From positions 1-24,365 of IMG/VR virus record IMGVR_UViG_3300030085_005257: a stretch of DNA of 24,365 nt. One strand, given 5' to 3'. Position 1 is the stretch's first letter; every line of letters starts with the position of its first letter. This stretch comes from a virus. A model generated the notes under the pieces. That model did no database searches. It saw only the letters and a program-made list of their open reading frames with translations, and was not told where the DNA came from. Positions 9,282-23,937 of this stretch are shown one piece after another. Both the position numbers and the translations under genes were made by a program.

Positions 9282-9408
9282 TTTTTAATACCGTTAGAAG
9301 GTGCATATTACCGTGTATGTATCCATAGATAATAATACTCAATGCAAATAGTAAACATGCTATGAGAGATAGTATTAAAGGAATCTTTTCATTTGTATGT
9401 TTAACCAT
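9268..9408 (-). CDS. Small single-pass membrane protein, 46 residues
   Basis: ATG 9408 to TGA 9268, beginning MVKHTNEKIPLILSLIACLL. Residues 9-31 form one strongly hydrophobic helix, with Lys and His before it and a short soluble tail (HGNMHLLTVLKNARS) after it. It overlaps the start of the oxygenase by 14 bases. It is a predicted inner-membrane peptide. Many phages carry such proteins next to host-takeover genes; no specific role can be assigned. Confidence 0.65.
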   Translation of the reverse strand: MVKHTNEKIPLILSLIACLLFALSIIIYGYIHGNMHLLTVLKNARS

Positions 9409-10186: not shown

Positions 10187-10214
10187 ATTATAGAGAGATT
10201 TAAGAATTTGTCAA
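10187..10214 (-). promoter_or_regulatory. Near-perfect sigma70 promoter
   Basis: Minus-strand TTGACA (10209-10214), 16-base spacer, TATAAT (10187-10192): both hexamers are exact consensus. The -35 lies within the last codons of the upstream metallopeptidase gene and the -10 just past its stop. This should be read by unmodified host RNA polymerase, as expected for an early or constitutive phage promoter, and drives the gene starting at 10162. Confidence 0.88.
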
Positions 10215-10664
10215 GCGGTTGGGGAATGGTGTTCCCTTTCCATGTGATTCAGGGCCTAAACCCAGATAAGAATTGTAGAGTTTAATCTCCATCTCAACTG
10301 CTTCATGCTCCCAGGGTTGATCTGCATAATCAAGATTATCAGCGTTTACATTTTTCCAATGTCGCACACCACGCTTATCGCGAAGTGAACCATTAACATG
10401 CTGATAAACATGCCACAGTTCATGTAGAAGAACAGTGATGTAATCCTGCTCTTTAAGAGTAGTTTCCATTTCAATTAGAAACTCACGGGGGTGATGATCA
10501 CAATCCATAACAGTGCAGAATCCTTGAGCATGTTCTCTCTTGAGTCCTCTGTGAGCGACTGTGATGTCTAGATGATGGTTAGGCATATACTTTGCCTTGA
10601 ACCACTCTACAACCTTCTTACAGCGCCTTTTAGGTGCCTTTCCGGTGATGTCAAGATAAAGCAT
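10200..10664 (-). CDS. SprT-like zinc metallopeptidase
   Basis: A 154-residue protein starting MLYLDITGKAPKRRCKKVVE. The zinc motif HELWH (H81, E82, H85) lies in ITVLLHELWHVYQHVNG, followed by WEHEAVEME (118-126), whose Glu or His may be the third zinc ligand. This is the arrangement of SprT/WSS1-type minimal proteases, which act on DNA-bound or crosslinked proteins. An N-terminal strand region (HLDITVAHRGL) precedes it. The C-terminus ends shortly after the motif, so the usual zinc ribbon is missing. A role in clearing host proteins from DNA is possible. The call as metallopeptidase is firm; the substrate is unknown. Confidence 0.85.
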   Translation of the reverse strand: MLYLDITGKAPKRRCKKVVEWFKAKYMPNHHLDITVAHRGLKREHAQGFCTVMDCDHHPREFLIEMETTLKEQDYITVLLHELWHVYQHVNGSLRDKRGVRHWKNVNADNLDYADQPWEHEAVEMEIKLYNSYLGLGPESHGKGTPFPNRLTNS

Positions 10665-10774: not shown

Positions 10775-10804
10775 TAAAACCCGTCAAGCGAAAACCTGAC
10801 GGGT
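10775..10804 (-). terminator. Rho-independent terminator
   Basis: Minus-strand ACCCGTCA (10797-10804) pairs with TGACGGGT (10779-10786) across a 10-base loop, followed by TTTTAT. It lies 23 bases past the stop of the oxygenase gene at 10827 and closes the long late module. Confidence 0.88.
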
Positions 10805-10826: not shown

Positions 10827-11318
10827 CTAGAAATAATTAAAGTTTACATTGATTCTGCATTTAGTATCAGTGCATGTTGTACTTGTGTGTGGTTTAGAGG
10901 AATCAAAAAGTAACAGGCGATTTTCAATTGATTTAACTTCTACTTTATCTTCAAGAATAGTCACTCCATTATTAGTATTCAGATAAAAAATTGCACCTTT
11001 ATGAGGAAATGGATAATCAACATGATTATCATGTATTATTGTTTCTGGTGTGGATGGATAACAATTTGCTTTGATTCTCATAAGTGCATGACAATCCATC
11101 AAATTAAGAAGTGGCGCAAACATATGAGATACAGGTTCTATATTAAATCCATCCCAAAACATATGCGTAAAGTAAAAAGAGGCATGTGTAGGAAGAACTT
11201 CTTTTTCATTTGTAATAAAAGTTGTCAAATTCCAAGGAAAATATGGGTTTAATATGCTATTTTTAATTTTCTCAAACTCTTCTTGTGGGAGAGCGTTATC
11301 TATGATTTTGTAATTCAT
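10827..11318 (-). CDS. 2-oxoglutarate/Fe(II) oxygenase
   Basis: A 163-residue protein starting MNYKIIDNALPQEEFEKIKN. The metal triad is visible as H99-V-D101 (in IIHDNHVDYPF) and H144 (SSKPHTS), with R155 (KCRINVNF) for 2-oxoglutarate. Between them lie jelly-roll strands (GAIFYLNTNNGVTILED, NRLLLFD). The protein is clearly similar to the one at 11964-12488 (PHK at the same place, then NG.T.L.D, then NR.LLFD), so the two are paralogues. It is the last gene of the late module. It is likely a hydroxylase acting on a protein side chain or sugar; the substrate is not known. Confidence 0.88.
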   Translation of the reverse strand: MNYKIIDNALPQEEFEKIKNSILNPYFPWNLTTFITNEKEVLPTHASFYFTHMFWDGFNIEPVSHMFAPLLNLMDCHALMRIKANCYPSTPETIIHDNHVDYPFPHKGAIFYLNTNNGVTILEDKVEVKSIENRLLLFDSSKPHTSTTCTDTKCRINVNFNYF

Positions 11319-11319
11319 T

Positions 11320-11961
11320 TTAGGAGTAATTTAATGGAGATTCTGATTTCATGCTTAATACATAATCAACATTAAAAGTCTGCCTAATACCTTTTGTTTG
11401 TGGATAAGTTCCATGTGGGATATGAAAAGGAAAAATTAAAACTTTCCCAACTTCGGGTTGTATGTTGTAAATACTAGGACATCCTTGTTTTATAAAATTG
11501 TTTGATGGATCAGTATGTAAAACAAAAACTATATTGTTAAATTTATGTTTCGGTTCGGGTACATTCAAATATAATACGATGGATATTCCGTTTATCGTAC
11601 CATTACAATGATCATGAATTGTATGATAAGAACCTTCTTCGCCTATTACTGTCCAAGCTGTACTTTGTTCCAGTTCAACATTATCAGTTCTTAAAAGAGA
11701 TGCTGCTTTAAGTCTTCCATATATTCCTTCTCTAAATCTTCTTTCTATGTCTTCGTACTCTTTATTTTTATAATAAAAAGGTTTCTTTCCTTTCTTTTGA
11801 ATCCAATATTGTTCTGCATTATCTCCTGTTGTACTAAAACCTTCTTTATCATTATAAAAAAAATTTAAGTGTTTATCAAGAAAGTATTTAATGTCATTTA
11901 GCAACTCATTGTCTAATTGATCTTCAATCAACCAATTATTGCCATATTCAACAACATTCAT
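11320..11961 (-). CDS. 2-oxoglutarate/Fe(II) oxygenase-like protein
   Basis: A 213-residue protein starting MNVVEYGNNWLIEDQLDNEL. ATG 11961 is chosen over a TTG at 11967. The His-rich segment SYHTIHDHCNGTINGISIVL (H113, H116, D117, H118) gives the first metal ligands, although which of them bind is uncertain. FPFHIPHGTYPQTKGIRQTF supplies the distal His (H180 or H183) and Arg (R193). The strands VLYLNVPE and GKVLIFPF fit the jelly roll. It belongs to a different subfamily from its two neighbours. It follows the preceding gene within a few bases and is followed after one base by the next ATG, as one operon. Confidence 0.82.
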   Translation of the reverse strand: MNVVEYGNNWLIEDQLDNELLNDIKYFLDKHLNFFYNDKEGFSTTGDNAEQYWIQKKGKKPFYYKNKEYEDIERRFREGIYGRLKAASLLRTDNVELEQSTAWTVIGEEGSYHTIHDHCNGTINGISIVLYLNVPEPKHKFNNIVFVLHTDPSNNFIKQGCPSIYNIQPEVGKVLIFPFHIPHGTYPQTKGIRQTFNVDYVLSMKSESPLNYS

Positions 11962-11963
11962 AA

Positions 11964-12488
11964 TCAATTATAGTTAATATTAATTACACAGCGAACTTCA
12001 TCGGTAGAAGTCACTGAATGATGTTCTATAGAACCATCAAAAAGTAACATTCTATTTTTAATACACTCTACTTTAGCAGTATCTTTAAGGACTGTCCATC
12101 CATTACAATCAGTCACATAAAATAATGCAACTTTATGAGGTATATTTCTATCAGTATGAAATTCGTGATAGATATGTTTTTTTGTTGGCACTAAAAGATT
12201 TGCTCGAACATCAAACAGTTTTTTGATGTTGAGTTTATTGATAATAGGTTTAACTACAGGATAGTGTCTGTCAAATTTTAGTCCATTATCTGAAGAATAC
12301 AAAGCACGATTATACATCCAATCGTACTCTTCATATCCTGTAGGGCCTAGTTCTGGATCTCTTACGATACCTTTATGATAATTCCAAGCAAAATTGTTTG
12401 GATTGTTAAAATCTTTAGGAAAAAAAGTATTGGTAATATAATCAAGATCTTCTTTTTCAAGAAAATCATCTATAATTTCAAATGTCAT
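11964..12488 (-). CDS. 2-oxoglutarate/Fe(II) oxygenase
   Basis: A 174-residue protein starting MTFEIIDDFLEKEDLDYITN. H111-T-D113 (EFHTDRNIPHK) and H156/H157 (GSIEHHSVT) make the facial triad, and R166 (EVRCVININ) would bind 2-oxoglutarate. The segments ALFYVTDCNGWTVLKD and KNRMLLFDG align by eye with those of the oxygenase at 10827-11318, so these two arose by duplication. It starts three bases after the stop of the possible tail-associated gene, which suggests the modified target could be that protein or its partner. Confidence 0.88.
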   Translation of the reverse strand: MTFEIIDDFLEKEDLDYITNTFFPKDFNNPNNFAWNYHKGIVRDPELGPTGYEEYDWMYNRALYSSDNGLKFDRHYPVVKPIINKLNIKKLFDVRANLLVPTKKHIYHEFHTDRNIPHKVALFYVTDCNGWTVLKDTAKVECIKNRMLLFDGSIEHHSVTSTDEVRCVININYN

Positions 12489-12491
12489 AAA

Positions 12492-13055
12492 TTATGATAA
12501 TGTGTAAACAGCACTCATTCCAGTTGAATCAAATAATGTCTGCAGTTCTGCAAGTTCATCCGTAGAAAATGTAATTCCTGCAAGAATTCCAGTGATTGAT
12601 TCTTGTATTTTAATAGAATTGGCAAAACCTCTCTTTGCATCATCCAGAAGAGCAATAAATTCAGTAAGAAGAGTATTTGCTGCTAATGCTGAAGATGCTG
12701 CTGTCTTCATTGTAGTATATACATCAGTACTTAACAAATTAGTCCAAAAAGCATCATAGTTAACAGAAAATAGTTTTGTATCATCTGAAAGTTCTGTTGC
12801 ATCAAATACTCTTGTTTCACTATTCCATACATAGGAATTGCTGAAAAATGCTGCTCCATATGTTTCATAGGAAGGCATACTAACCTTTTTCCAACCAAGA
12901 GCAACTAATTCATCATCGGTTTTATCAGGAAGATCAGTTCTTAATGTATCTTCAGGATTATCTTTCCACTGATCTGGGAGCATTTGGGGAGCTGCTCCAT
13001 TAGGAGGACTCCACATACCTCTTGCTTCTGTAGCAGCAAAATCTGTATAAGCCAT
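12492..13055 (-). CDS. Possible tail-associated protein
   Basis: A 187-residue protein starting MAYTDFAATEARGMWSPPNG. Residues 35-57 (EDTLRTDLPDKTDDELVALG then WKK) contain the TDDEL..LGWKKV type of motif seen in phage tail-fibre-associated and assembly proteins. The following part is strand-rich and aromatic (YETYGAAFFSNSYVWNSETR), and the C-terminal 80 residues are Ala/Leu/Thr-rich and helical. It has its own late-type octamer upstream, and its reading frame differs in style from the enzymes around it. The tail connection is an inference from that short motif. It could instead be a chaperone for the adhesins. Confidence 0.6.
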   Translation of the reverse strand: MAYTDFAATEARGMWSPPNGAAPQMLPDQWKDNPEDTLRTDLPDKTDDELVALGWKKVSMPSYETYGAAFFSNSYVWNSETRVFDATELSDDTKLFSVNYDAFWTNLLSTDVYTTMKTAASSALAANTLLTEFIALLDDAKRGFANSIKIQESITGILAGITFSTDELAELQTLFDSTGMSAVYTLS

Positions 13056-13086
13056 GTTTGCGGGAGTTCTAGTTTATCCTTCGCTT

Positions 13087-13446
13087 TTATTTATGAATTT
13101 TTACCTCCCTATATGACGAATCAAATTTTTCATTGATTTCTTTTTTAATTGAAGATCTTTTATCATTATTAATATAAACATTTCTTGCAAGATTTACAAA
13201 AGAATCACTAAAATCCTTTGATTTTTCATGAACTCTTAATTCATCTTCTATTTTCCAAAGTTTTTGATTGACTTCTAAAAGCTGATCAAAATATTTAAAA
13301 TCAAAAACTTTATTTTCTTTTGCAATTTCAATAAGACTATCTAATTCTTTATGTACATATACATTATCTGTGTATAGGGACTTGATTTGAAGAATAGAAA
13401 TCTTATCAAGAAGTTCTCCAACAGAAATAGGAATTGTTATTTTCAA
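13087..13446 (-). CDS. DUF6165-type protein
   Basis: A 119-residue protein starting MKITIPISVGELLDKISILQ, then LWKIEDELRVHEKSKDF, ARNVYINNDKRSSIKKEINE and a final Ser-Tyr-Arg-Glu-Val. This matches the DUF6165 pattern as I remember it (IPIS.GEL.DK..IL..K; N..LW.IED.R; FV.LAR.VY..ND.R..IK..IN). The family is found beside surface-polysaccharide and glycosyltransferase genes, but its activity is unknown. The start is TTG, overlapping the upstream stop as TTGA. No closer ATG would preserve the conserved N-terminus. It is largely helical and probably a partner protein rather than an enzyme. Confidence 0.85.
   Translation of the reverse strand: MKITIPISVGELLDKISILQIKSLYTDNVYVHKELDSLIEIAKENKVFDFKYFDQLLEVNQKLWKIEDELRVHEKSKDFSDSFVNLARNVYINNDKRSSIKKEINEKFDSSYREVKIHK
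13088..13095 (-). promoter_or_regulatory. Late-type promoter octamer CATAAATA
   Basis: Minus-strand CATAAATA lies 32 bases before ATG 13055 and matches the T4 late promoter core (TATAAATA) at 7 of 8 positions. It overlaps the stop codon of the DUF6165-type gene, so the next unit starts within the previous one. Confidence 0.6.
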
Positions 13447-14210
13447 TTGTATAGCACTCCTTTGATTTCTTTTTGTTCTATAATCTTCCTATTAAACACA
13501 ATACGTAATAAAATTCTGGGATTATCTTTGGTAAATTCTTGAGTTATATTAGGAGAATGAAATAAATTTGCAGGATAAACAATTGCTTGATTGGGTTTGT
13601 ATTCTATCTCCTTAATTAATTTTATATGTGAATCTTGTTTGTTATTTAAAAAAGTTTTAAATTCATTTTTTGTTATTTGCACTTCACGGTAATAATCCAT
13701 CAACTCCTTTTTTTTATTTTTTAAATATTCTTCCCATTCTTCAAGTATTTCACTACTACAGTATTCTTGATTTTTATATGCAAAAAACTTTGTTGATACT
13801 GGAATGTCATTCAAGTTAACTAAACATATGTATTGTAGGATGTTTTTAAATTGAACTTGATCTATGTGTGGATATGAATTAGATAACGTCCATATTGGTT
13901 TTGATTCATGCTCGAAAAAGTAATTGCATGTCATTTTATAAGAATTTAAATCATCAATTATATTATTATCTACAGCATATTTTTCCACTAAAGATTTTCC
14001 AACCCAGTTAGGAAAAATACTTTCATATCCTGGTTTAGCATTTTCTTGATATGCAATACAATTCCATTTATCTGTGCCTACAAAAAATTTTTTTGCAGAC
14101 TTAAAATTTTCAAAAAAATTATCAATCAATGTGATATTATCAGTTATTTTTGTATAACTTTCACATTTAGGTTTGCAAGATTTATTATAAAATTCGTTTA
14201 ATGTCTTCAT
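13443..14210 (-). CDS. 2-oxoglutarate/Fe(II) oxygenase-like protein (DUF6445-like)
   Basis: A 255-residue protein starting MKTLNEFYNKSCKPKCESYT. SYPHIDQVQFKNILQYICL contains H115-I-D117. After a roughly 60-residue charged insertion (EEWEEYLKNKKKELMDYYRE), EYKPNQAIVYPANLFHSPNI gives H218, and DNPRILLRIVFN gives R232 or R236. The layout (PH.D.....YI.LV, then F.Y, then P.LFHS) recalls the DUF6445 proteins often linked with glycan or natural-product clusters. The DNA is notably A/T-rich. Its stop overlaps the start of the DUF6165-type gene, so the two are co-translated. Confidence 0.8.
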   Translation of the reverse strand: MKTLNEFYNKSCKPKCESYTKITDNITLIDNFFENFKSAKKFFVGTDKWNCIAYQENAKPGYESIFPNWVGKSLVEKYAVDNNIIDDLNSYKMTCNYFFEHESKPIWTLSNSYPHIDQVQFKNILQYICLVNLNDIPVSTKFFAYKNQEYCSSEILEEWEEYLKNKKKELMDYYREVQITKNEFKTFLNNKQDSHIKLIKEIEYKPNQAIVYPANLFHSPNITQEFTKDNPRILLRIVFNRKIIEQKEIKGVLYN

Positions 14211-14231
14211 TTTATTTGTGAAGTGTTATTT

Positions 14232-15230
14232 TCAATTATAAAATACCTTGCTATTTTTATTCTTCGGCGATTTTTCTTCAATATTTGCTACAATTTCGCT
14301 AGGCGATAATGCTTGTGATTTTCCTTCAATATTTTCTATAATTTCGCGATATGCTTTTTCTATTTCTTCTTGAGTAAAGTCAATTCTTGGTTCATTTAAT
14401 CTTGATGCCATATGCGATTGAAATCCAGATATTCTCATGTTATCAGGATAGAAAGGAACATCTCTTTCAATTATATGAAAATCATCATAAGTCGTATTAG
14501 TTTTATGAGTTCCTGCAATCATAACAGACGCTTTTTTATCAAATGCTTTACACATATGTTGTCCGCAACTATCACAACCAATAAAGTAATCTGCTGCTCC
14601 TATAATTGCAGCCCAAGATCTTAAATCCGGATCTGGATCTGGTTTATATGTTCTAACATCATGAAAGTCTTTTGCTCCCATGTAAATTAGATTATAATTC
14701 TTTGAAAGATTATCAATAAAATAATCTAACATTTTTTGGGGCATTGATCTCAAACTATCATCAAAAATTCCAGATGGATGTGGTGTTGCTGTAGATCCAT
14801 ATGGTTGTATGACAATTGTTTTCCCCTTGGGATGCTTTTTCTTTGATCTTTTAATAATATCATATGCATTTCTTTTTTCTTGCATTGATAAGTTAAGTTG
14901 CATCGGTGGCAAGTCACTATGATCTTCTGAATCATTGATACAAACATCAAATGCTTCTCTCAGTGAAATTTCGTTTCGATAGTATGCAGGGAGGCGATAA
15001 GGTTCTGGTGAGATAACTCTATATGCTTTCCAAAACAAATTAAACGTACCTTTTGCTTCAGGACTAAATGTTCTTTCTTGCAGTTCTGGAAATCCCCATG
15101 TTATAAATTCCCATCCAGGAATTGTTATATACCATTCTTCATCGGGGTGATTTTTATGATATTTTAAAAGTGCTGGAATTGCTGTGATAATTCGTCCAAG
15201 TCCACCGTCTAATGATATGATTGTAGTCAT
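14232..15230 (-). CDS. GT9 (heptosyltransferase-type) glycosyltransferase
   Basis: A 332-residue protein starting MTTIISLDGGLGRIITAIPA. The G-rich loop GGLGRIITAIPALL (9-22) and the C-terminal half with IVIQPYGS (139-146), LIYMGAKD (181-188) and IGAADYFIGCDSCGQHMCKA (210-229) followed by A-S-V-M-I-A-G are the hallmarks of family 9, GT-B fold transferases. Those move ADP-heptose or similar nucleotide sugars onto LPS core or protein acceptors. In the phage it may glycosylate a structural protein or change host LPS. The last 50 residues are an extra charged tail with a duplicated element, beyond the usual fold. It overlaps its upstream neighbour as ATGA. Confidence 0.85.
   Translation of the reverse strand: MTTIISLDGGLGRIITAIPALLKYHKNHPDEEWYITIPGWEFITWGFPELQERTFSPEAKGTFNLFWKAYRVISPEPYRLPAYYRNEISLREAFDVCINDSEDHSDLPPMQLNLSMQEKRNAYDIIKRSKKKHPKGKTIVIQPYGSTATPHPSGIFDDSLRSMPQKMLDYFIDNLSKNYNLIYMGAKDFHDVRTYKPDPDPDLRSWAAIIGAADYFIGCDSCGQHMCKAFDKKASVMIAGTHKTNTTYDDFHIIERDVPFYPDNMRISGFQSHMASRLNEPRIDFTQEEIEKAYREIIENIEGKSQALSPSEIVANIEEKSPKNKNSKVFYN
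14269..14348 (-). repeat. In-frame tandem repeat in GT9 tail, 48-bp period
   Basis: Two copies of about 32 bases (14269-14300 and 14317-14348) start 48 bases apart, exactly 16 codons. They encode EIIENIEGKS and EIVANIEEKS near the C-terminus of the glycosyltransferase. The pattern suggests slippage or a duplicated docking peptide. Confidence 0.7.
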
Positions 15231-15997
15231 TTATAATTTAGAGATACTGATTGTTTTTGTTTTTTGTCCTCATATGATCTATTCATAACTTGTTTCCAAT
15301 CTATGATAGGACTTAAATGATTAAAATCGCAGTGTGTGCTCCAGCCAGGTATTGATGATATTAAAAATCTTTCACGATCTTTCAGTTCATAAAACTTGTC
15401 ATAGTCTTTAGAGAAATGAAATCCATCTTCTTCTTTGATAGCTTTTTCTGATGAATATTTTTTATGAATATCCAGATCTTCTAAAAGAGTTTTATATCTG
15501 CAGGCATAAGTATTTGTTGTTGCGGGAGTTGCTCTCCAATGAGTGCTTTTAGTGAAAAATATTTCACTTAAAAATCCTTTACCAATAAAAAAATCAAAAT
15601 CATATAAGGTTACATATGAAGAATTGATTGTAAATCCTTCTAATAATATATCACACCAACCAGGACGATGTAGATAATCATCTTCTAAAAAGTAAATGAT
15701 TTGATCATCATCAAAGTTTCTTGACTGTACGTGATCAAGAGTTGAAAGAAAACTTTCACATTCACTTCCGTGATTGACTATCTTAACATTTTTTTCCTGT
15801 GCAAGAAATGTTTTATCAATACCTCCATAAAACTCATCATAGATAATTGTATAGTTTACAAGATCAGGATCTAAGGTATTTTTAAAATTTTCAAATACTT
15901 TAATTTTGTTAAACCACTCAGGCCTTGTGCGATCTGGAAGTTCTTGTAGTTTTGAATAGTAACAATGTCTTAAAAAGACTTCAATTGGTTTTTTCAT
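15227..15997 (-). CDS. GT-A-type glycosyltransferase-like protein
   Basis: A 256-residue protein starting MKKPIEVFLRHCYYSKLQEL. YFLEDDYLHRPGWCDILLEG (102-121) contains an EDD metal/nucleotide-sugar motif after a hydrophobic strand, as in family 2-type GT-A transferases. YTIIYDEFYGG (49-59) and VKIVNHGSECESFLSTLDHV (71-90) fit the N-terminal Rossmann-like half. The same EDDYLH occurs in the protein at 18277-19092, so the two are related, although the rest differs. ATGA overlaps link it to its neighbours on both sides. Donor and acceptor are unknown. Confidence 0.78.
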   Translation of the reverse strand: MKKPIEVFLRHCYYSKLQELPDRTRPEWFNKIKVFENFKNTLDPDLVNYTIIYDEFYGGIDKTFLAQEKNVKIVNHGSECESFLSTLDHVQSRNFDDDQIIYFLEDDYLHRPGWCDILLEGFTINSSYVTLYDFDFFIGKGFLSEIFFTKSTHWRATPATTNTYACRYKTLLEDLDIHKKYSSEKAIKEEDGFHFSKDYDKFYELKDRERFLISSIPGWSTHCDFNHLSPIIDWKQVMNRSYEDKKQKQSVSLNYK

Positions 15998-16614
15998 TGA
16001 TAAGTAATTTTATTTTCTTTTTTAAATTCAGATGATACTCGTGTTCCCAATCCCATCATAGGCCTTTTGTCATATTTATGATCTGCATAAGGCCCTTTTG
16101 CATTTACATAATGAAGAAAACATTGCATTTGCATTTCTCCTTGATATAGATCTCTCCAATGTTCTAGTTCGCATCCAGAATATACACACATATCGCCAGG
16201 ATTTAACTTGATTACTTTATCCTCTCCATGTCTATCTTTAATGTGAAAATCCCAAATATCAGTGCTATCTATACATAAAGTTGTTGAATATTCACAACTA
16301 GGCCTATCTATATGTGGTTTAAGAATTGCACCTTTATAATAAATTCTGGCATAAGTGTAAGTTGGAATTAATTTAAAATTTGTGATTTCTGACATTCGAT
16401 CATTTAAATTAATTGCAAGAGATTCAAAAAATGGAGCACCATAAACGCTGAAACTATTCGGCGATTGAGGATCACCAAAAGCAAAATTATTTGTTTCACC
16501 TGTTTTAAAAAAATGTAAATCTCTCTTTATTTGAAATTCAGTTTTTAAATGACATAACAGATCTTTTGTGATTACACTCCTAACAACTTCGTATCCATTT
16601 TTAGAAAACGACAT
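15994..16614 (-). CDS. 2-oxoglutarate/Fe(II) oxygenase
   Basis: A 206-residue protein starting MSFSKNGYEVVRSVITKDLL. YARIYYKGAILKPHIDRPSC holds H101-I-D103, and GCELEHWRDLYQGEMQMQCF gives H152. Either R154 or another basic residue holds 2-oxoglutarate. KGxxLxPHxDRPxCEYS with a later ExHWR is a pattern common among phage and bacterial hydroxylases of this size. It starts four bases after the previous stop and overlaps the next gene as ATGA. Its position between a prolyl-hydroxylase-like enzyme and a glycosyltransferase suggests hydroxylation followed by glycosylation of one target. Confidence 0.88.
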   Translation of the reverse strand: MSFSKNGYEVVRSVITKDLLCHLKTEFQIKRDLHFFKTGETNNFAFGDPQSPNSFSVYGAPFFESLAINLNDRMSEITNFKLIPTYTYARIYYKGAILKPHIDRPSCEYSTTLCIDSTDIWDFHIKDRHGEDKVIKLNPGDMCVYSGCELEHWRDLYQGEMQMQCFLHYVNAKGPYADHKYDKRPMMGLGTRVSSEFKKENKITYQ

Positions 16615-16618
16615 ATTT

Positions 16619-17263
16619 CTATCTCAAATTAGGGCCTTGCACCCAACTTACCAATGAATGCCTTACACCTTTAGTAACTGATGTTACTTCATGAAGAATG
16701 TCAGATTCAAAAAATACAATTGTACCTTTTGATTTTGGTGCTTTTTTTTCTTTTTCATCAATATAAAAAATTAATTCTCCACCTTCATATTCATTTTCAT
16801 CTGTTAGTTGTATAGTAAAGGATAGTTTTCTAATATCAACATAATTATCTAAAGATTTTTTTGATCCACAATCACGATGCTTTGTATAAAATCCTCTTTT
16901 TTCTTCAGTATATTCTGAAAATTGTAAATCTTCTACAAATTTTAATTGCAAATCAAAATTTTTACCATTTACATCAATTATCTCATCAATAATTTTTTTA
17001 AATAACCAATTCGTATTTTCATTAAGTGTAAACCATTTTATATCAGTAATTCTTTTTCTAGGAACAACACCTATATTTGGATCTTTTATGTGATAATCTA
17101 ATGTAAATTCTTTTTTTTCATTTTCTTCTTGTCCTCCAACTTTTGCATCTTGTAATGTAAGTGTCTTTGCATATGTTTTAATTTTTTCAATTTCATCATT
17201 AGTTAAAAAATTATCCACCCAATAAACTGGGTAGTATTCTTTTTTAGATCTCAATAAATTCAT
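16619..17263 (-). CDS. Prolyl 4-hydroxylase-like 2-oxoglutarate/Fe(II) oxygenase
   Basis: A 214-residue protein starting MNLLRSKKEYYPVYWVDNFL. FYTKHRDCGS holds H129-R-D131, then KLSFTIQLTDENEYEGGELI, then KGTIVFFESDILHEVTSVTK with H191, and GVRHSLVSWV with R201. The run L..P.EY.GGEL.F....K..G....F.S...HEV..V..G.R.S...W is the P4H/PKHD-type pattern, so a protein side chain is a plausible substrate. It is A/T-rich and overlaps the preceding small gene as ATGA. This is the most confidently placed hydroxylase of the set. Confidence 0.92.
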   Translation of the reverse strand: MNLLRSKKEYYPVYWVDNFLTNDEIEKIKTYAKTLTLQDAKVGGQEENEKKEFTLDYHIKDPNIGVVPRKRITDIKWFTLNENTNWLFKKIIDEIIDVNGKNFDLQLKFVEDLQFSEYTEEKRGFYTKHRDCGSKKSLDNYVDIRKLSFTIQLTDENEYEGGELIFYIDEKEKKAPKSKGTIVFFESDILHEVTSVTKGVRHSLVSWVQGPNLR

Positions 17264-17544
17264 ACATTTTCCTCTTCATCAAGTAATTTTTTTGCCTCTC
17301 TTTCTATCTCATGATAATGCAATTCTGCAATCCCTTCATCTCCAATTTTTTGACGCAATTTCATATAACCTTTTGGGACGCACTCCAGTTTAAAAAACTG
17401 TCCAACCTCTTCCCAAACAGGATTATCGGTTTGAAGTCTAATATCCAACAAGTCTAAAATTTTCTTAACATCATCAAGTGTTTCTAATTCATCAACACTA
17501 AGTTTAAATCTTCTAACTTTTGGATGATTTGCTGCTTCGCTCAT
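17260..17544 (-). CDS. Hypothetical protein, 94 residues
   Basis: The protein starts MSEAANHPKVRRFKLSVDEL. ATG 17544 is chosen over a TTG at 17556, because GAG lies at a suitable distance before it and the short extension adds nothing. It has an N-terminal basic strand (VRRFKLSV), a helix (ELETLDDVKKILDLLDIRLQ) and an acidic C-terminal helix (EIEREAKKLLDEEENV). There is no catalytic motif, and it may be a partner of the hydroxylase that follows with an ATGA overlap. A late-type octamer lies 28 bases upstream, making it the first gene of its unit. The function is unknown. Confidence 0.75.
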   Translation of the reverse strand: MSEAANHPKVRRFKLSVDELETLDDVKKILDLLDIRLQTDNPVWEEVGQFFKLECVPKGYMKLRQKIGDEGIAELHYHEIEREAKKLLDEEENV

Positions 17545-17572
17545 AATTAATCTCAATTTATTAATCTTGGTG

Positions 17573-17580
17573 TATTTATT
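17573..17580 (-). promoter_or_regulatory. Late-type promoter octamer AATAAATA
   Basis: Minus-strand AATAAATA, 28 bases before ATG 17544, differs from the T4 late core TATAAATA only at the first base. It overlaps the last codons and stop of the upstream gene (17576-18280). Confidence 0.65.
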
Positions 17581-18280
17581 CTTTTATGAGAACACCTGCC
17601 GGAGCCCAATATCCTTCAACTCCCATGACACCGATTGTCTTAACAATTTTTTTCTTCAAATGCTTGTAAAGTAAATGTTCGATATCAGCTTGCTTTCTTG
17701 TTTTTGATGCGTATAAAACATCTTTTTTCATTTTACCAAATGTTTTAATGATTTCTGACAATAAACTACTATCAAAACTCCAACATCGTGTCATATATTG
17801 CATCATTGTTGCTTTTACATCAGATCTATAAATGCAATCACTTAAACGCGGTTGAAGTATGACAACTTTATCCTTTGCTTCAAGATGTGTTGAATAATTA
17901 AACTTTGAATTTAATTTATACCTACCACTAATTTTAAAAATTCTCTCATAAGAACCTGTCATATTTTTTAAATATTCTTCTATTTTCATAATTTCTAATA
18001 TTGCTTTTGCAATTATACCTGGATTAATATCATCACAGGTTGTTAGAAATTCATGAAGATGATATTGTATCTCTTCATGATTTGCATAATTGATAACTTC
18101 GCAGTCAAACATATCATTATCTACAGATTTATTACCACCATCAATGATGACAACAGATGAATCTGGAGCATGAGTTTTTATCGATTCTAATGTTTCTCTT
18201 GTTTGTTCAATACGATCTTTTGTAACACATTCCCCATAATCAGTGTGTATTGCAGAGGTTACTATGAAGAGTGAAGTCAT
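17576..18280 (-). CDS. Possible glycosyltransferase
   Basis: A 234-residue protein starting MTSLFIVTSAIHTDYGECVT. An N-terminal Rossmann-like strand is followed by RIEQTRETLESIKTHAPDSS then VVIIDGG, the opening of many nucleotide-sugar transferases. RIFKISGRYKLNSKFNYSTH (113-132) resembles the FK.SGRY.L motif of WavE-like LPS biosynthesis proteins. No DxD motif is obvious, so the assignment is tentative. It overlaps the neighbouring EDDYLH transferase as ATGA. Its stop overlaps a late-type octamer, so the transcription unit probably ends or is re-started here. Confidence 0.6.
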   Translation of the reverse strand: MTSLFIVTSAIHTDYGECVTKDRIEQTRETLESIKTHAPDSSVVIIDGGNKSVDNDMFDCEVINYANHEEIQYHLHEFLTTCDDINPGIIAKAILEIMKIEEYLKNMTGSYERIFKISGRYKLNSKFNYSTHLEAKDKVVILQPRLSDCIYRSDVKATMMQYMTRCWSFDSSLLSEIIKTFGKMKKDVLYASKTRKQADIEHLLYKHLKKKIVKTIGVMGVEGYWAPAGVLIKE

Positions 18281-19092
18281 TGATATTGAAATGTATTTCT
18301 TATTTTCGTGTACTTATTCCACCAACTCATGTGATCAATATGAGGATCTTTTTGCTTCTCAAATTGAACATGCAAAGCTAATGATGGAATAGGATTCACT
18401 CTCACCACATGATGTTCCCATATATCACTAATAGTATTTCCTTCATGAACTAATTCATCTATAGGATCAATCCCATTCCAAGGAGTATATTGTGATGCTA
18501 ATTTTTCAAAAGTTGGCCAATAATCTTGAAAAACTTTAGGAGTAGTCATCATAGTGAAAGTAGTCCATATGCCCTCTTTCCAGTGCCTTTTAGGCGTTCT
18601 AAACACTCTTCCAGGAAATACATACCCATACTCATAATCTTCTACATTATCGAATGGATAAATGCACAATTCCTTGGATATGTGATAATATTCTTTTAAA
18701 TATTTGTAGGTACTCAACATTTCTTGCAGTGCTTCAGTGCAATGTAAGTAATCGTCCTCTACAGAATAAACTAAATCTGCAGAGGAATTTTTACAATGTT
18801 CAAATTGTTTTAAACCACTGTGGTGAAATCCAGGAATTTTTAGATCAATAATTTGATAAGAGTGTTTTGAGTATGAAAATGCATCATGAATTTTTTTAAT
18901 ACAATCTTCTGTACATCTATCATTTAAAATAACGAAATTTATTTCTACACTTTTAGCAAAGTTTGCAGAATTAATCAAAGAAGTTAAACATCCTACTATC
19001 AAATCTTTTTTGGGAACATCAATATATCTTGGTTTTCCATTACCATGAATATTTTGTCCATCGTGAATTCTAATAATAATATCAAGTTTCAT
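18277..19092 (-). CDS. GT-A-type glycosyltransferase-like protein
   Basis: A 271-residue protein starting MKLDIIIRIHDGQNIHGNGK. After INFVILNDRCTEDCIKKIHD (51-70), ADLVYSVEDDYLHCTEALQE (105-124) carries the EDD metal/nucleotide-sugar site, followed by aromatic segments (RHWKEGIWTTFTMMTTPKVF) and a C-terminal His/Trp-rich part (HIDHMSWWNKYTK). The opening DIIIRIHDG and NDRC resemble family 2 transferases. It shares EDDYLH with the protein at 15227-15997. ATGA overlaps join it to the genes on both sides. Donor and acceptor are unknown. Confidence 0.78.
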   Translation of the reverse strand: MKLDIIIRIHDGQNIHGNGKPRYIDVPKKDLIVGCLTSLINSANFAKSVEINFVILNDRCTEDCIKKIHDAFSYSKHSYQIIDLKIPGFHHSGLKQFEHCKNSSADLVYSVEDDYLHCTEALQEMLSTYKYLKEYYHISKELCIYPFDNVEDYEYGYVFPGRVFRTPKRHWKEGIWTTFTMMTTPKVFQDYWPTFEKLASQYTPWNGIDPIDELVHEGNTISDIWEHHVVRVNPIPSLALHVQFEKQKDPHIDHMSWWNKYTKIRNTFQYQ

Positions 19093-19697
19093 GAGTACTC
19101 AAATAATGATTGTTTTTTATAATTAAAGTTTTTATAATCAATATTATAAATTTCATATAACTTCATTTTGGAATTTTTTGAAAGTTGTATTACTTTATCA
19201 TCTTCTATTTTAGATGAGTTTAGTTTTTGAATATTTTCTATACTAATCTTACTTAAATCTTCTTGTAAGTTTTCAAATCTTACATAATAATCTATTTCTA
19301 TTTCATTACTTTTATTTAAAATTATAAAGGTTTGAGGAATATTCCAACGATTAAATTCTTTGGAATTTTTATAGAGATATGATGTATATTCATTAATGTC
19401 CATTTTATTACATAGTTCATAATGAGTATGTTTTTCTAATCCCTCTTCTCCTGTTGCAGAGAACCACCCACTTTCTTTCATTCTTGCAAATTTATATGCA
19501 GAGATAAATCTATCAATCGGATCACGAATCACTGTAAACTTTTTGTACTTATCCCAATATTCACTATAGTATTCTTTATATTCTTCAATAGTTTTATCCA
19601 TGTACATATTCTCAACTCCCATTGCTTTAATGACAGAAGTCCCCGCATTTTTGGGAATATGAATGAATATTAACCTTCTTTCGTGGCAGATTGTCAT
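19089..19697 (-). CDS. Sulfotransferase (Sulfotransfer_2-like)
   Basis: A 202-residue protein starting MTICHERRLIFIHIPKNAGT. FIHIPKNAGTSVIKAMG (11-27) is the 5'-phosphosulfate loop for PAPS, and FTVIRDPIDRFISAYKFARM (54-73) carries the Arg and Ser of the 3'-phosphate site. This is the pattern of Golgi-type carbohydrate sulfotransferases and their bacterial and phage relatives, so the acceptor is probably a sugar. PAPS would come from the host. The C-terminal third is Asn/Lys-rich and variable. It overlaps the carbamoyltransferase stop as ATGA and is not closely related to the sulfotransferase at 21232-22038. Confidence 0.9.
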   Translation of the reverse strand: MTICHERRLIFIHIPKNAGTSVIKAMGVENMYMDKTIEEYKEYYSEYWDKYKKFTVIRDPIDRFISAYKFARMKESGWFSATGEEGLEKHTHYELCNKMDINEYTSYLYKNSKEFNRWNIPQTFIILNKSNEIEIDYYVRFENLQEDLSKISIENIQKLNSSKIEDDKVIQLSKNSKMKLYEIYNIDYKNFNYKKQSLFEYS

Positions 19698-21235
19698 TGA
19701 TACAATAATTTTTTATTCTTAACTGTAACCAAAGTTTCTATTTCGGGAAGATAAAGATATTCTATCATACTATTCTTAAGAGTTTTGATTGCATGATCAA
19801 ATGTCTCTACTAATGGTTCTCCTCCAAGATTGAAACTTGTATTCATCAACATTGGAACACCAGTTTTTTCAAAAAAACAAGAAATCAAATTGTAAAAGTG
19901 ATGATTTTGTTCCTGAGTCACAGTTTGTATTCTACAAGTATTATCCGCATGAATTATAGCAGGAACTTGTTCTATTGCATTTTTATAAGCATCAATTGCA
20001 TACTGCATATACGGACTTTCTTTTAATGAAAGCATGTCAAACCATTTATGTGCTTCCTCCTGCAAAACACTTCCAGCAAATGGACGAAAGTTTTCTCTTT
20101 GTTTAATTTCATTGACTATATCCTTTCCATTAGAAACTCTTGGATCAAAAAGTAATGATCTATTTCCAAGGGCTCTTTGTCCTGCTTCAGATTTGCCTTG
20201 AAGTAATGCAACTACATTTTTCTGAAGTAGTAACTTCACAATGTCATCATAAGAAACTTTTTTTGTTTCCAAATTTGATAAGTCATAAGTTTCCTCTTTA
20301 TACCCAATATATGCGTTTTGAAGTGGTTTAATTTTAGATTTGTCTGCAGTATGATAATATGCTGATCCAATAGCAATTCCAGCATCAAAACATATCGGAT
20401 CGACATAAAGATTAATATCTTTTAGTTGCTTAAGATAATGATAATTAGCAACACAATTTAATCCATAACCACCGGAGATTACAACATTTTTAATTCCAGT
20501 TTCTTCTGTATATTTTTTAATTAATGAGAGGATGTGATTTTGAGTTTCTTGTTGTAAATCATGTGCTTGATCAACTCTTTGTTTCCATTCTTTTGAATTG
20601 TATGGATACTGAAGTTTTTCTTTGTAATTTTTATATTGTGCAAGTCCCATAATTTTTCCTGCACCATCAATCGCATCATATCCAAACAATTCCGAATATT
20701 TGCAAAATTTTTCACCAACACTTAAATTTTTTTCATCAATAGAAGAAATATATTTCCAGAAACTATTGTTTACTTTTATTGTTCTAAATTTTCTGGTTCT
20801 TTGATGAAGTTGAATTTCCTCTTGATTTTTTCTTAAATGATAAATTGATTCAATTTCAATATCTCCACTATTTAAAATTGCACCTGATGCATCAACCGAA
20901 AAACAAATTGCTTCATCAAATCCAGAATTATAAAATCCCGAATATGCATGATATAAATGATGTATTTCACTTTCAATAATCAACTTATCATATGAAATAT
21001 TTTGAATCTTTTCTTTTATTTTTTCTAATGGATATGTATAATTTTCAAGAAACTGTGAAGTAATAATAATCTTATCAAAAAAAGTATCTTCTAAGTTATC
21101 TAATATCAGTTCAGAGTGTCTATCATGCTTTTTCCTAGAGAATCTTTCTTCCATCTGATAAGAAGTAATCGCACCATCCTCTAAGATGCAGATAGATGTA
21201 TCGTGTGCTAATCGTGGTATAGTTAAGATTTTCAT
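19694..21235 (-). CDS. NodU/CmcH-family O-carbamoyltransferase
   Basis: A 513-residue protein starting MKILTIPRLAHDTSICILED. It transfers a carbamoyl group from carbamoyl phosphate (via carbamoyl-adenylate) to a hydroxyl. The N-terminal Kae1-like domain shows HDTSICILEDG (11-21), IHHLYHAYSGFYNSGFDEAI (91-110), whose His residues bind metal, and FSVDASGA (112-119). VVISGGYGLNCVANY (251-265) is the second phosphate/nucleotide region. The C-terminal domain has QGKSEAGQRALGNRSLLFDP (346-365) and RENFRPFAGSVL (380-391), both family hallmarks. The full length is present. Carbamoylated sugars occur on LPS, Nod factors and antibiotics, so a sugar on phage or host surface is the likely acceptor. It lies between two sulfotransferase genes with 4-base overlaps. 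Confidence 0.94.
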   Translation of the reverse strand: MKILTIPRLAHDTSICILEDGAITSYQMEERFSRKKHDRHSELILDNLEDTFFDKIIITSQFLENYTYPLEKIKEKIQNISYDKLIIESEIHHLYHAYSGFYNSGFDEAICFSVDASGAILNSGDIEIESIYHLRKNQEEIQLHQRTRKFRTIKVNNSFWKYISSIDEKNLSVGEKFCKYSELFGYDAIDGAGKIMGLAQYKNYKEKLQYPYNSKEWKQRVDQAHDLQQETQNHILSLIKKYTEETGIKNVVISGGYGLNCVANYHYLKQLKDINLYVDPICFDAGIAIGSAYYHTADKSKIKPLQNAYIGYKEETYDLSNLETKKVSYDDIVKLLLQKNVVALLQGKSEAGQRALGNRSLLFDPRVSNGKDIVNEIKQRENFRPFAGSVLQEEAHKWFDMLSLKESPYMQYAIDAYKNAIEQVPAIIHADNTCRIQTVTQEQNHHFYNLISCFFEKTGVPMLMNTSFNLGGEPLVETFDHAIKTLKNSMIEYLYLPEIETLVTVKNKKLLYQ

Positions 21236-22038
21236 TTATATTCAATAATATCTGGATTAATTTTATTATTTTTTCTCCAAAATTCCATATTCATTTTCTT
21301 ATATTTTTGAACAATTTCTGAAGGAAGAACACATCTTGGTGGTTTGTATTCCACTTTTCTTCTAACCGTATGTAAATCTTTAACATTACAAGCCTTATCA
21401 AAGTTTTCATTTGAATATTCTATGTCCTCAAAATTATGAGAATAATAAGGTTTTTCAAGAAACTTATAAATTTCTCTCACCGTTTTTTCCGGATCTTTAC
21501 AAAGGTTCTCATATTCAATAAAATGAATCATTTCGGGGTTAAGTGCGTAACCTTCTTGAAGAAAGGTATGATACTTAATCACTTCTCTTTCAAAAATTTC
21601 TTGAGTTCTTATGAAGATATTATCAGAAAATACTTTTTCGCTGATTTGTTTGGTATTAAAACAATTTTTATTTAAAAGAACTTCAAAAGAATTTAAAATT
21701 GAAACAATATCTCTTACAGGACATAATATTTTCGTATAAGGAAATAGTGCTTGAAGTAAATTAGTTTTTTTCGTCCAACTTCTTGAAGTATCAAAAATTA
21801 TAGGATTTTCTATGTGCTGATAATAACCGTTAAAGATTCCGTGTAATAAATTTTTTCTTTGAGTTTCAATAACAGTAAGATTACTTTCAGCACCAGTAAT
21901 AATATCAATAGAAGTTCCTGTAAGTGCTTCTACTGGTGATGCAATATCAGCATAAAAATCTGGATTCTGTTTCAGAATTGCAGACAATAATGTAGAACCT
22001 GAACGAGGTAGTCCAGAGATAAAATAATATTGTTTCAC
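21232..22038 (-). CDS. Sulfotransferase family protein
   Basis: A 268-residue protein starting MKQYYFISGLPRSGSTLLSA. GLPRSGSTLLS (9-19) is the 5'-phosphosulfate loop for PAPS. LCPVRDIVSILNSFEVLLNK (105-124) carries the Arg and Ser of the 3'-phosphate site. MIHFIEYENLCKDPEKTVRE matches the F..YE.L..DP..T...I pattern of this family. It is distinct from the other sulfotransferase and closer to the broad tyrosylprotein/carbohydrate group, so either a sugar or a tyrosine could be sulfated. Its stop overlaps the carbamoyltransferase start as ATGA. Confidence 0.92.
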   Translation of the reverse strand: MKQYYFISGLPRSGSTLLSAILKQNPDFYADIASPVEALTGTSIDIITGAESNLTVIETQRKNLLHGIFNGYYQHIENPIIFDTSRSWTKKTNLLQALFPYTKILCPVRDIVSILNSFEVLLNKNCFNTKQISEKVFSDNIFIRTQEIFEREVIKYHTFLQEGYALNPEMIHFIEYENLCKDPEKTVREIYKFLEKPYYSHNFEDIEYSNENFDKACNVKDLHTVRRKVEYKPPRCVLPSEIVQKYKKMNMEFWRKNNKINPDIIEYK

Positions 22039-22041
22039 AAA

Positions 22042-22659
22042 TTATGATTGAAGTTTTTGAATAGAGCCTTTAGGAAGTGCAATTATATTAAACGAAATTG
22101 AAATACGTTCTTCGTCATGATCATTAGTTTCTACTGAATGAGGAAGATAAGAAGGGAAAAGAATGATATTACCTTCTACTGGTTCAATACGAATACTTTC
22201 TCCCGTAAATTGATTTTTTTGCGATACTAATTGACTACCTTTCCACATTCTATTAATCCCTGGATTTACTAAAGAAAGTTTTCCACTACCCTCTGGAGCT
22301 TGAAGATAAAAAACACCAGAGAATACGTCACCATGAATATGTTCACTATTCATACACTGACGACTGTCATTGACATTCAACCATGCTTCAGTAACAGCAA
22401 TATCACAATCCACAAAATCTAAATCTGCAACTGCCTTATATCCAAGCTGGCAGATATATTCAAAGAGTGGACGAAGTTCTCCTAATTGTTGAAGTGTGCT
22501 TGGAGATTGATAACCAGCAATATTTGATCGCGGTGTTTCTTTTGTTGGAGTTTGTTCTTTAAATTCTTTAACGGCACTGAGAAAGATTTCCTTATGTTCT
22601 TCAAACTCTGGGTACTCTGATTGCCACAGTGGAGTGGAATAAATTGGCATCAAGTTCAT
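22042..22659 (-). CDS. 2OG-Fe(II) oxygenase, 2OG-FeII_Oxy_5-like
   Basis: A 205-residue protein starting MNLMPIYSTPLWQSEYPEFE. It opens with the P.Y.TPLW segment typical of this family. EAWLNVNDSRQCMNSEHIHG (H107-I-H109) and FSGVFYLQAPEGSGKLSLVN follow, then GNIILFPSYLPHSVETND (H174) and EERISISFNI (R185). The W.NV......EH.H....SGV.Y...P.GSG.L pattern is well known in marine phages and bacteria. It is the first gene after the terminator at 22719-22746 and has a late-type octamer upstream, so it heads the VV-type unit of five downstream transferases. Three bases separate it from the next gene. Confidence 0.92.
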   Translation of the reverse strand: MNLMPIYSTPLWQSEYPEFEEHKEIFLSAVKEFKEQTPTKETPRSNIAGYQSPSTLQQLGELRPLFEYICQLGYKAVADLDFVDCDIAVTEAWLNVNDSRQCMNSEHIHGDVFSGVFYLQAPEGSGKLSLVNPGINRMWKGSQLVSQKNQFTGESIRIEPVEGNIILFPSYLPHSVETNDHDEERISISFNIIALPKGSIQKLQS

Positions 22660-22718: not shown

Positions 22719-22746
22719 TAAAAAACCCTCACATTGCTGCGAGGGT
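22719..22746 (-). terminator. Rho-independent terminator, GCAA tetraloop
   Basis: Minus-strand ACCCTCGCA (22738-22746) pairs with TGTGAGGGT (22725-22733), nine pairs with one G-U, around GCAA, followed by a run of T. It lies 27 bases past the adhesin stop and isolates it from the tailoring operon. Confidence 0.92.
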
Positions 22747-22773: not shown

Positions 22774-23937
22774 TCAATAAGAAACACATCTGAAGGCACG
22801 GACACAATTATCAACTGTTTTATTGCCAGTATAAGCTGAGCCATTATTCATGTCTATGTATCTCGCCAATTGTTGTACATTATTGTCTGTATAAGAAGTT
22901 TGGTGGGTGGGCGAGGCTACGTGTTGTGTATTACTCCAATAATCTCTAGTATTGTACGAATCCCAATATTGTCTACATTGATATCCTGGGTTCTGAAGTT
23001 GCGTGCAACTAGGAATAAACCAATCACCACATGCAGCATTAGCATTGGCGGTTGTTACAGCATGACTTCTTTCGTACCAACATCTACGAACTTCAGTACT
23101 TGATGGTGCTACAACCCAATATATACTTGATGCACAGCACATGAGGTATCCACCTTCACCTCCTGCTCCTAAAGATGGCCATCCAGCTTCTGCAGTAAAG
23201 TTATAAGTATTGATTATTGCATTAGCTGAGTCTGAATCACCATCAGTATTAGTGAAGCATCCTGCATCAACTACTACATAAATATCTTCTAATTCATTAA
23301 GATCAGATGGTGGATTAATGGTTGCTTGTGCGCCAGAAACAGATACGGCACCAGATGTTACGTCAATAGTCTGTCTTATAGTTCCTGATGCACTTCCTGC
23401 TCTTAAGGTGATATTACCACTTCCTTTTGCAATGTTATTACTAAAAGTAATGACGATATTAGTGTCAACGGCCTGATCAACAGCACCATCAGATGGACTG
23501 AAGGATGATACTGTGATGGGCCCTGTGGTGAAATTATAAGTATCAATTAAATCATTTCCACTATTTAATGAAGGACTTGTAACTACACCTTCATCAACTA
23601 CAACATAGATGTCTTTACCAGCCGGCAAAGTCCCAATAGGTGGGTTAATTAATAACTCTCCAGAAGAAACTGTAACAGCTCCTGATGAAACTGCAATGGT
23701 TTCAATAACAGTTCCCGATGCACTTCCCTCTCTTAAAGTAATATTTCCACTACCTTTAGTTACATTACTATTAAATAAAATAGAAATGTTATTTGTTAAT
23801 GATACATCAGTTGCTCCATCATTAGGACTAAAATTAAGAACTGTTGGTGGAACATCTACAGATGTTGCTGTCAGGACACCTACATTAAGATTTCTTTCGT
23901 TATCAATTACGTTTACACCAGAAACTTGAATAGCCAT
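22774..23937 (-). CDS. Adhesin/tail-fibre-type protein with two Ig-like repeats
   Basis: A 387-residue protein starting MAIQVSGVNVIDNERNLNVG. Residues 32-139 and 144-250 are two copies of a bacterial Ig-like (SbsA/Big_5-type) domain, each with FSP.DGA.D......I...F...., KGSGNITLR.GSASGT and I.TYNFT. Residues 251-387 form a Cys-rich domain: W.SL..GGEGGYL, STEVRRCWY, AACGDWFIPS (301-310), YWDSYNTRDYWS and a final CVRAFRCVSY. That layout recalls the DUF1566/C-type-lectin-like fold used in phage receptor-binding tips. There is no signal peptide, as expected of a virion part. A late-type octamer precedes it and a terminator follows. Confidence 0.82.
   Translation of the reverse strand: MAIQVSGVNVIDNERNLNVGVLTATSVDVPPTVLNFSPNDGATDVSLTNNISILFNSNVTKGSGNITLREGSASGTVIETIAVSSGAVTVSSGELLINPPIGTLPAGKDIYVVVDEGVVTSPSLNSGNDLIDTYNFTTGPITVSSFSPSDGAVDQAVDTNIVITFSNNIAKGSGNITLRAGSASGTIRQTIDVTSGAVSVSGAQATINPPSDLNELEDIYVVVDAGCFTNTDGDSDSANAIINTYNFTAEAGWPSLGAGGEGGYLMCCASSIYWVVAPSSTEVRRCWYERSHAVTTANANAACGDWFIPSCTQLQNPGYQCRQYWDSYNTRDYWSNTQHVASPTHQTSYTDNNVQQLARYIDMNNGSAYTGNKTVDNCVRAFRCVSY
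23278..23855 (-). repeat. Tandem duplication encoding two Ig-like domains
   Basis: Two adjacent coding segments of about 320-335 bases within the adhesin gene (roughly residues 32-139 and 144-250) are visibly related. For example, KGSGNITLR.GSASGT occurs at residues 61-76 and 171-186. The DNA is related but clearly diverged, so this is an old rather than recent duplication. Confidence 0.7.

Follow-up and report, generated by a model that had tools for sequence, protein, structure and literature searches.

A candidate cassette for adhesin tailoring in the tail-fibre region of a T4-like cyanophage

The virus record IMGVR_UViG_3300030085_005257 of IMG/VR, analysed here over 24,365 bases (hereafter the window), is AT-rich (34% GC) and its DNA-level matches are Synechococcus phages only. 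It carries, next to the genes of a tail adhesin, an operon of 17 consecutive minus-strand open reading frames (ORFs) occupying exactly 10827-22659 and packed head to tail, which encodes mainly oxygenases, glycosyltransferase-like proteins, sulfotransferases and a carbamoyltransferase. We propose, with a probability of roughly 0.55, that this cassette tailors tail adhesins or fibres, decorating them by hydroxylation, glycosylation, sulfation or carbamoylation. The proposal draws on the families and folds of the enzymes, the structure of the operon, its ordered linkage to a tail adhesin, and the diversification of this adhesin by diversity-generating retroelements (DGRs) in relatives.

The 16 junctions of the operon are all tight: nine are 4-base overlaps (seven ATGA, two TTGA) and seven are gaps of 1-31 nt. 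Two predicted intrinsic terminators, hairpins with T tails on the minus strand like the operon and adhesin genes, frame it; one separates the adhesin gene from the operon (22725-22746, a 9-pair stem then TTTTTT), the other past the last operon gene (10779-10804, an 11-pair stem with a TTTAT tail). A preliminary description of the window had reported 17 consecutive genes with 4-base overlaps between two terminators; coordinates, junctions and both hairpins are confirmed, its observation is largely correct and the cassette is real. The late-type octamers that it also reported do not stand: the core ATAAATA is found at 5 sites in the window versus 13.2 expected by chance, so that late promoters are rejected on this ground and the octamers give no support to late expression.

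The same cassette recurs in environmental contigs that we retrieved by IMG/VR scans with the cassette and adhesin proteins as queries, and dereplicated into 24 lineages at 95% identity of OX7, the oxygenase encoded by the first operon gene. The recurrent order is tail-fibre ORFs, Lcl_C adhesin, OX7, sulfotransferase ST3, a variable block, EDDY1, GT9, DUF6165, a tail-assembly-like gene, then OX3, OX2 and OX1. This arrangement of the core is well conserved, 316 of 322 gene pairs respecting it; as the loci were chosen by cassette genes and the pairs are phylogenetically dependent, such counts describe a linkage and not a formal probability. Since the ordered cassette recurs in 24 lineages, its recurrence exceeds chance. 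OX7 and GT9 are present in all 24, ST3 in 20 and EDDY1 in 18; the carbamoyltransferase is found in 6, the sulfotransferase ST2 in 5 and the oxygenase OX6 in 3, and the window is thus one of many mosaics. Some related cassettes hold tryptophan-halogenase and radical SAM genes (L042:15477-17039, L146:3367-4257, L009:478-1680), a hint of further chemistries.

In 23 of the 24 lineages an Lcl_C-type ORF lies upstream of OX7 at a distance of at most 3 kb, and in all of them one is present somewhere in the locus, with tail-fibre ORFs farther upstream. Adhesin ORFs number 30 in the 67 kb upstream, versus 8 in 348 kb elsewhere. Only three loci were retrieved through the adhesin query itself; besides, an independent OX7 query brought four more lineages, all with the Lcl_C domain in the locus or the record. 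The co-occurrence with the same adhesin domain, which the preliminary description had named as a test of the link, is thus strongly positive.

In the window the adhesin gene adjacent to the operon (22774-23937) encodes two Big_5 Ig-like domains (Pfam, 1.8e-21) followed by an Lcl_C-type C-terminal domain (0.008); a second gene (23996-24364), whose 5' end is cut by the contig end, encodes another Lcl_C/DUF1566-type C-terminal domain (weak Pfam match, 0.0037). The Lcl_C score of single sequences is under the Pfam cut-off, and the homology is established by a profile of 21 relatives, which matches the C-terminal domain of the Legionella collagen-like protein (Lcl-CTD; PDB 8q4e, E 1.9e-10). Lcl-CTD is a trimeric, lectin-like domain that binds sulphated glycosaminoglycans (PMC11162425). 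In two relatives, L031:38-3505 and L017:6726-8244, three lectin-domain adhesin genes stand in tandem, and some copies share near-identical stretches, which suggests duplication or gene conversion.

In three related lineages (L004/L005, L006 and L166) a reverse transcriptase (RT) gene is inserted between the adhesin and OX7. The RT of L006 matches RVT_1 (4e-15), and L004 also encodes bAvd (2.5e-18); the DGRs of these cyanophage-like contigs lie at L004:5707-7563 and L006:2654-4523, and in L166 the RT ORF is upstream of OX7. Between template and variable repeats (TR and VR), 22 of 24 mismatches in L004 and 18 of 19 in L006 fall at template adenines (p 1.5e-10 in L004 and 2.6e-9 in L006 by Fisher's test). 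Because the mismatches concentrate on template adenines, the adhesins of L004/L005 and L006 are DGR targets; in L166 the signal is weak (6 adenine and 3 other mismatches, p 0.009). A third "TR" of L006 (15812-15933), with 5 non-adenine mismatches, was discarded as probably an ordinary tail-fibre repeat, and L021 keeps a decayed RT fragment at 9216-9389. These relatives resemble the DGR-diversified C-type-lectin tail proteins such as Mtd of BPP-1 (PMC8144416) by the lectin-fold adhesin, the TR/VR pair, the RT and Avd. They differ in that their DGR stands ahead of a tailoring cassette; in the window itself a search for a TR found none, and no RT is encoded in the 24 kb of this fragmentary record. 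Altogether, the match to a glycan-binding Lcl domain and the DGRs of relatives strengthen the adhesin reading, which these comparisons partly support.

The protein encoded at 12492-13055 provides the most direct link between the operon and the virion. Compared directly with PHROG, it matches a family of unknown function; by hhalign it is related (99.7%, E 4e-26) to the family of L015:1468-1938, which matches the PHROG tail fibre assembly and tail-assembly-chaperone families. The gene directly precedes the adhesin in about 10 lineages and lies inside the operon in others, as in the window. The "possible tail-associated protein" of the preliminary description is thus corrected into a relative of tail-fibre assembly or chaperone proteins.

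Seven proteins of the operon are 2-oxoglutarate (2OG)/Fe(II)-type oxygenases, as had been proposed: three by Pfam 2OG families, one by DUF6445 and three by PHROG families together with HxD...H motifs. OX7 (22042-22659; PF13759 2.7e-22, TIGR02466 above cut-off), OX2 (11320-11967; PF13759 3.4e-10) and the PKHD/YbiX-like OX6 (16619-17263; PF13640 1.4e-14, the NCBIfam PKHD models being below cut-off) pass the Pfam 2OG cut-offs. The DUF6445 protein (13443-14210) exceeds that of its own family (PF20043 3e-8) and shows a directly readable HID...H...R. OX1, OX3 and OX5 stay below the Pfam 2OG cut-offs: OX1 (10827-11318, the last operon gene) matches PHROG 274 at 2e-42 and reads HVD...H...R, OX3 (11964-12488) matches PHROG 274 and reads HTD...H...R, and OX5 (15994-16614) matches PHROG 2954 at 3e-57 and reads HID...H. 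The HxD/H...H...R facial triad is readable in all seven, its C-terminal residue being less clear in OX5. OX2, OX6 and OX7 are also weak matches of PHROG 274, and OX5 and OX6 have PHROG 3531 in common; the library names of these oxygenase families, DNA endonuclease V for PHROG 274 and ferrochelatase for PHROG 2954, seem to be misnomers. Outside the operon, at 8718-9281, the window encodes an eighth 2OG/Fe(II) oxygenase. We rejected collagen hydroxylation as a general role: among 34 contigs collagen-like repeats occur only in L004/L005, L011 and L017, and these G-A/V-Q repeats are not rich in Pro or Lys, which also counts against it.

Some phages pair TET-type oxygenases with glycosyltransferases (GTs) and carbamoyltransferases on DNA, so that bases oxidised, glycosylated and carbamoylated in a hypermodified phage DNA could be the product of the operon. 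In S-RIM44 a carbamoyltransferase indeed adjoins thymidylate synthase. On the other hand, no TET/JBP-type oxygenase, cytosine methyltransferase or base hydroxymethylase appears among the Pfam, PHROG and NCBIfam matches of the operon proteins; this, the linkage to the tail locus and the tail-assembly-like member make DNA hypermodification very improbable indeed.

Both sulfotransferases exceed their family cut-offs, as described previously. ST3 (21232-22038, Sulfotransfer_3, PF13469 8.6e-20) and ST2 (19089-19697, Sulfotransfer_2, PF03567 1e-12) are 3'-phosphoadenosine 5'-phosphosulfate (PAPS) sulfotransferases by these profiles and by their 5'-phosphosulfate-binding (5'-PSB) motifs, GLPRSGSTLL and HIPKNAGTS, read directly. 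The carbamoyltransferase (CARB, 19694-21235) also passes the Pfam cut-offs, with an N-terminal Kae1-like domain (PF02543 8.4e-17) and a C-terminal carbamoyltransferase domain (PF16861 2.7e-57); its solved relatives are 7xb6, the novobiocin carbamoyltransferase NovN, GdmN and TobZ. By family CARB is a predicted O-carbamoyltransferase of the NodU/CmcH or NodU/TobZ type, and no aspartate-carbamoyltransferase domain is found in it.

This bears on the published annotations, in which cyanophage oxygenases and carbamoyltransferases are assigned to DNA repair and pyrimidine synthesis (PMC9146016; pyrBI: PMC10436341). The genes would then be ordinary auxiliary genes, as PMC9146016 proposed, and in favour of this a helicase gene is present in the window and another near the S-CAM8 island. 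However, the carbamoyltransferase type just described speaks against pyrimidine synthesis, and the oxygenases share one adhesin-linked operon with sulfotransferases and GTs; the families seen here give no support to these annotations, which we regard as quite improbable for this cassette. The resemblance of CARB to antibiotic and Nod-factor enzymes, and the halogenase, radical SAM and aminotransferase-like genes of relatives, could rather evoke a free or virion-attached glycan or small molecule separate from the adhesin, such as a receptor mimic or a decoy. Against this, the operon is devoid of scaffold-building or export enzymes and the linkage to the tail adhesin is consistent, so that we find such a product improbable.

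The glycosyltransferase-like proteins were identified by fold for GT9 and EDDY2, because sequence searches of the PDB were uninformative (nothing useful came from the profiles of EDDY1, EDDY2, GT9 and the 17576-18280 protein). The GT9-like protein (14232-15230, present in all lineages) has no GT9 family among its Pfam matches up to E 1, and its profile does not find GT9 in PDB sequences. Nevertheless its AlphaFold model (pLDDT 82.5) clearly points to the heptosyltransferase-like GT9 fold: in VIA comparisons it reaches Z 20.8 with a Veillonella GT9 (3tov; 277 residues, 3.7 A), 19.8 with WaaF and 18.9 with TibC, versus 11.4 and below with other GT-B folds; plant NDH-complex chains give Z 17. The GT9 assignment of the preliminary description is thus retained by a predicted fold, though not by a Pfam profile. 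G12-R13 is invariant in 17 GT9-like sequences and would place an Arg where WaaC has Asp13 (GxGR vs MGD, by a by-eye motif alignment, the profile alignment leaving out the N-terminus). TibC is a precedent for a GT9-fold enzyme that glycosylates an adhesin. The fold is common to both, but the identity is only about 10%, TibC acts on a bacterial autotransporter, and the phage family appears to have GxGR at the position of the WaaC aspartate.

EDDY2 (18277-19092; AlphaFold pLDDT 79.8), with a conserved DDYLH, is GT-A-like in its model: Foldseek retrieves SpsA (3e-8) and VIA gives Z 14.0 with K4 chondroitin polymerase, and the acidic metal motif of this fold is found, D113-D114 being invariant. EDDY1 (15227-15997) is its homologue (hhalign 95%), with EDDYxH invariant in 18 sequences, and a scan of 84,980 genomes gave no bacterial relative. 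The two EDDYLH transferases of the preliminary description are thus related to one another, and the modelled one looks like a GT-A enzyme. Its possible further transferase (17576-18280), a conserved protein aligned with 9 relatives, fares less well: it has no significant match in Pfam, PHROG or NCBIfam, and a relationship to EDDY2 is rejected (hhalign 0.1%). Two small proteins complete the operon, a 98-aa conserved protein of unknown role (17260-17556) and a DUF6165-like protein (13087-13446), each in 13 of the 24 lineages; the latter had been called a DUF6165 protein, and it does match PF19662 (1e-5), with a score of 25.7 just under the cut-off of 27.

Surface glycans are commonly built by GT9 and GT-A enzymes, and this opens the main rival explanation: the operon would alter precursors of lipopolysaccharide (LPS) or exopolysaccharide in the infected cell, for superinfection exclusion or for the release of progeny from receptor-bearing debris, and would travel with tail genes as a host-range module. 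The shuffled mosaic content recalls O-antigen loci, other GTs of relatives match LPS or capsule families (Glyco_transf_25, Caps_synth), and in Mel-JY01 the GT cluster that holds an EDDY1 homologue stands apart from the annotated tail genes. By contrast, the operon has no flippase or membrane GT: no operon protein has a hydrophobic segment of transmembrane strength. It does not correspond to a seroconversion module of the Gtr type, which comprises a membrane-bound flippase and GT. The tail-fibre-assembly-like protein within the operon, and the heptose genes of S-CAM1 discussed below, also speak against host remodelling, which we consider unlikely; the LPS alternative of the preliminary description thus appears less likely than adhesin tailoring. 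A defence role was also searched by PADLOC, with no anti-phage match for 10 proteins.

Related tail-locus clusters exist in the cultured cyanophages S-CAM8, S-SSM7, S-CAM1 and S-SRM01. S-CAM8 (NC_021530) shares with the window tail fibres, a Nol-like carbamoyltransferase, several 2OG oxygenases (homologues of OX2, OX5, OX6 and OX7) and a nearby helicase, but no sulfotransferase, GT9 or EDDYLH homologue was detected in the region and the carbamoyltransferase is on the other strand. In S-SRM01 (Serangoonvirus) a 2OG oxygenase, a sulfotransferase and homologues of EDDY1 and DUF6165 follow long tail fibre genes, whereas RCC1-like proteins replace the Lcl_C adhesin and no GT9-like or carbamoyltransferase homologue was detected in the region. 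In S-CAM1 and S-SSM7 a GT9 homologue adjoins the carbamoyltransferase beside tail fibres; unlike the window, they have ADP-heptose supply genes, fewer oxygenases and no Lcl_C adhesin.

At 11980-17333 of S-CAM1 (L151), the GT9 homologue and the carbamoyltransferase are followed by heptose genes (heptose-phosphate adenylyltransferase-like, kinase-like, and an epimerase gene whose product shares 40% identity with E. coli RfaD), the whole enclosed by tail-fibre genes; one product, annotated as a phosphoheptose isomerase, rather resembles a HAD phosphatase. The LPS of cyanobacteria generally contains no heptose, and marine Synechococcus LPS lacks it (PMC4515613); because of this, the heptose of S-CAM1 would have no obvious place in the LPS of its host, which supports, without proving, a phage-specific glycan. 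A GT9 homologue, a carbamoyltransferase and a HAD-like gene also stand in a row in a Woesearchaeota metagenome-assembled genome (L154, 8001-11317), adjoining a large secreted-looking protein.

Several observations weigh against adhesin tailoring. The upstream terminator lies between the adhesin and the operon, so that they are probably separate transcripts; there is no sugar-donor gene in the 24-kb fragment; no fusion of an enzyme to an adhesin or tail protein was found with the five profiles built, a partial test; and the apparent Arg at the catalytic Asp position suggests that the GT9-like chemistry may differ from that of WaaC. The linkage to tail genes could also have another cause, the co-transfer of host-range modules. 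Finally, homologous cassettes without Lcl_C exist: the domain is absent from the complete isolates S-SRM01, S-SSM7 and S-CAM1, and from all 76 loci of distant carbamoyltransferase homologues (0/76). The preliminary description had named operons lacking both the adhesin domain and a glycan context as a refutation. Such operons do lack the domain, but their context is not glycan-free, and they adjoin tail fibres: 72 of the 76 loci have a GT9 homologue, and in 58 there is a protein homologous to the S-SSM7 tail fibre. As cassettes without Lcl_C still lie beside tail fibres, the general partner of the modifying genes is a tail adhesin or fibre, of different kinds, and not the Lcl_C domain. The modified receptor-binding protein proposed at the outset is thus favoured by the conserved adhesin linkage, the Lcl match and the DGRs, for a partner broader than the Lcl_C adhesin.

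Under adhesin tailoring, the mosaic cassette would act as follows. The tail adhesin, with its C-type-lectin-like Lcl_C domain, and/or neighbouring fibre proteins would be the substrate; synthesised during infection, they would fold together with the tail-fibre-assembly-like protein (12492-13055). The 2OG/Fe(II) oxygenases would add hydroxyls to side chains (or to sugars), the enzymes of GT9 and GT-A fold may build a short glycan, and the PAPS sulfotransferases and the O-carbamoyltransferase would cap hydroxyls before the completed protein joins the virion. The strict layering, with hydroxylation first, glycosylation next and sulfation or carbamoylation last, which the preliminary description had put forward, is an inference, and the benefit might be altered receptor binding, protection or stability. 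Mycobacteriophages, whose own GTs glycosylate virion proteins, offer a parallel to this proposal; their system is not known to have the hydroxylation, sulfation and carbamoylation set or a link to a lectin-like adhesin.

Near the operon, the window also encodes a protein of 154 aa (10200-10664) whose HExxH motif (HELWH) recalls zinc proteases; it follows the cassette in L031, L035, L044 and L065.

Clusters of 2OG oxygenase and carbamoyltransferase genes are common among the unexplained "auxiliary" genes of cyanophages. Their conserved link to adhesins and to a tail-assembly-like protein allows a hypothesis to be framed for them, the modification of virion proteins, which can be tested in phages already in culture. 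If it is true, phage host recognition would gain a layer of sulfated or carbamoylated glycan that is invisible to sequence-based host-range prediction. A more ambitious form, which we put forward tentatively and with more doubt than belief, is a phage machinery devoted to post-translational modification, by which lectin-like tail adhesins, also diversified by DGRs in some relatives, would be hydroxylated, glycosylated, sulfated and carbamoylated; this phage group would then vary one receptor-binding protein both genetically and chemically.

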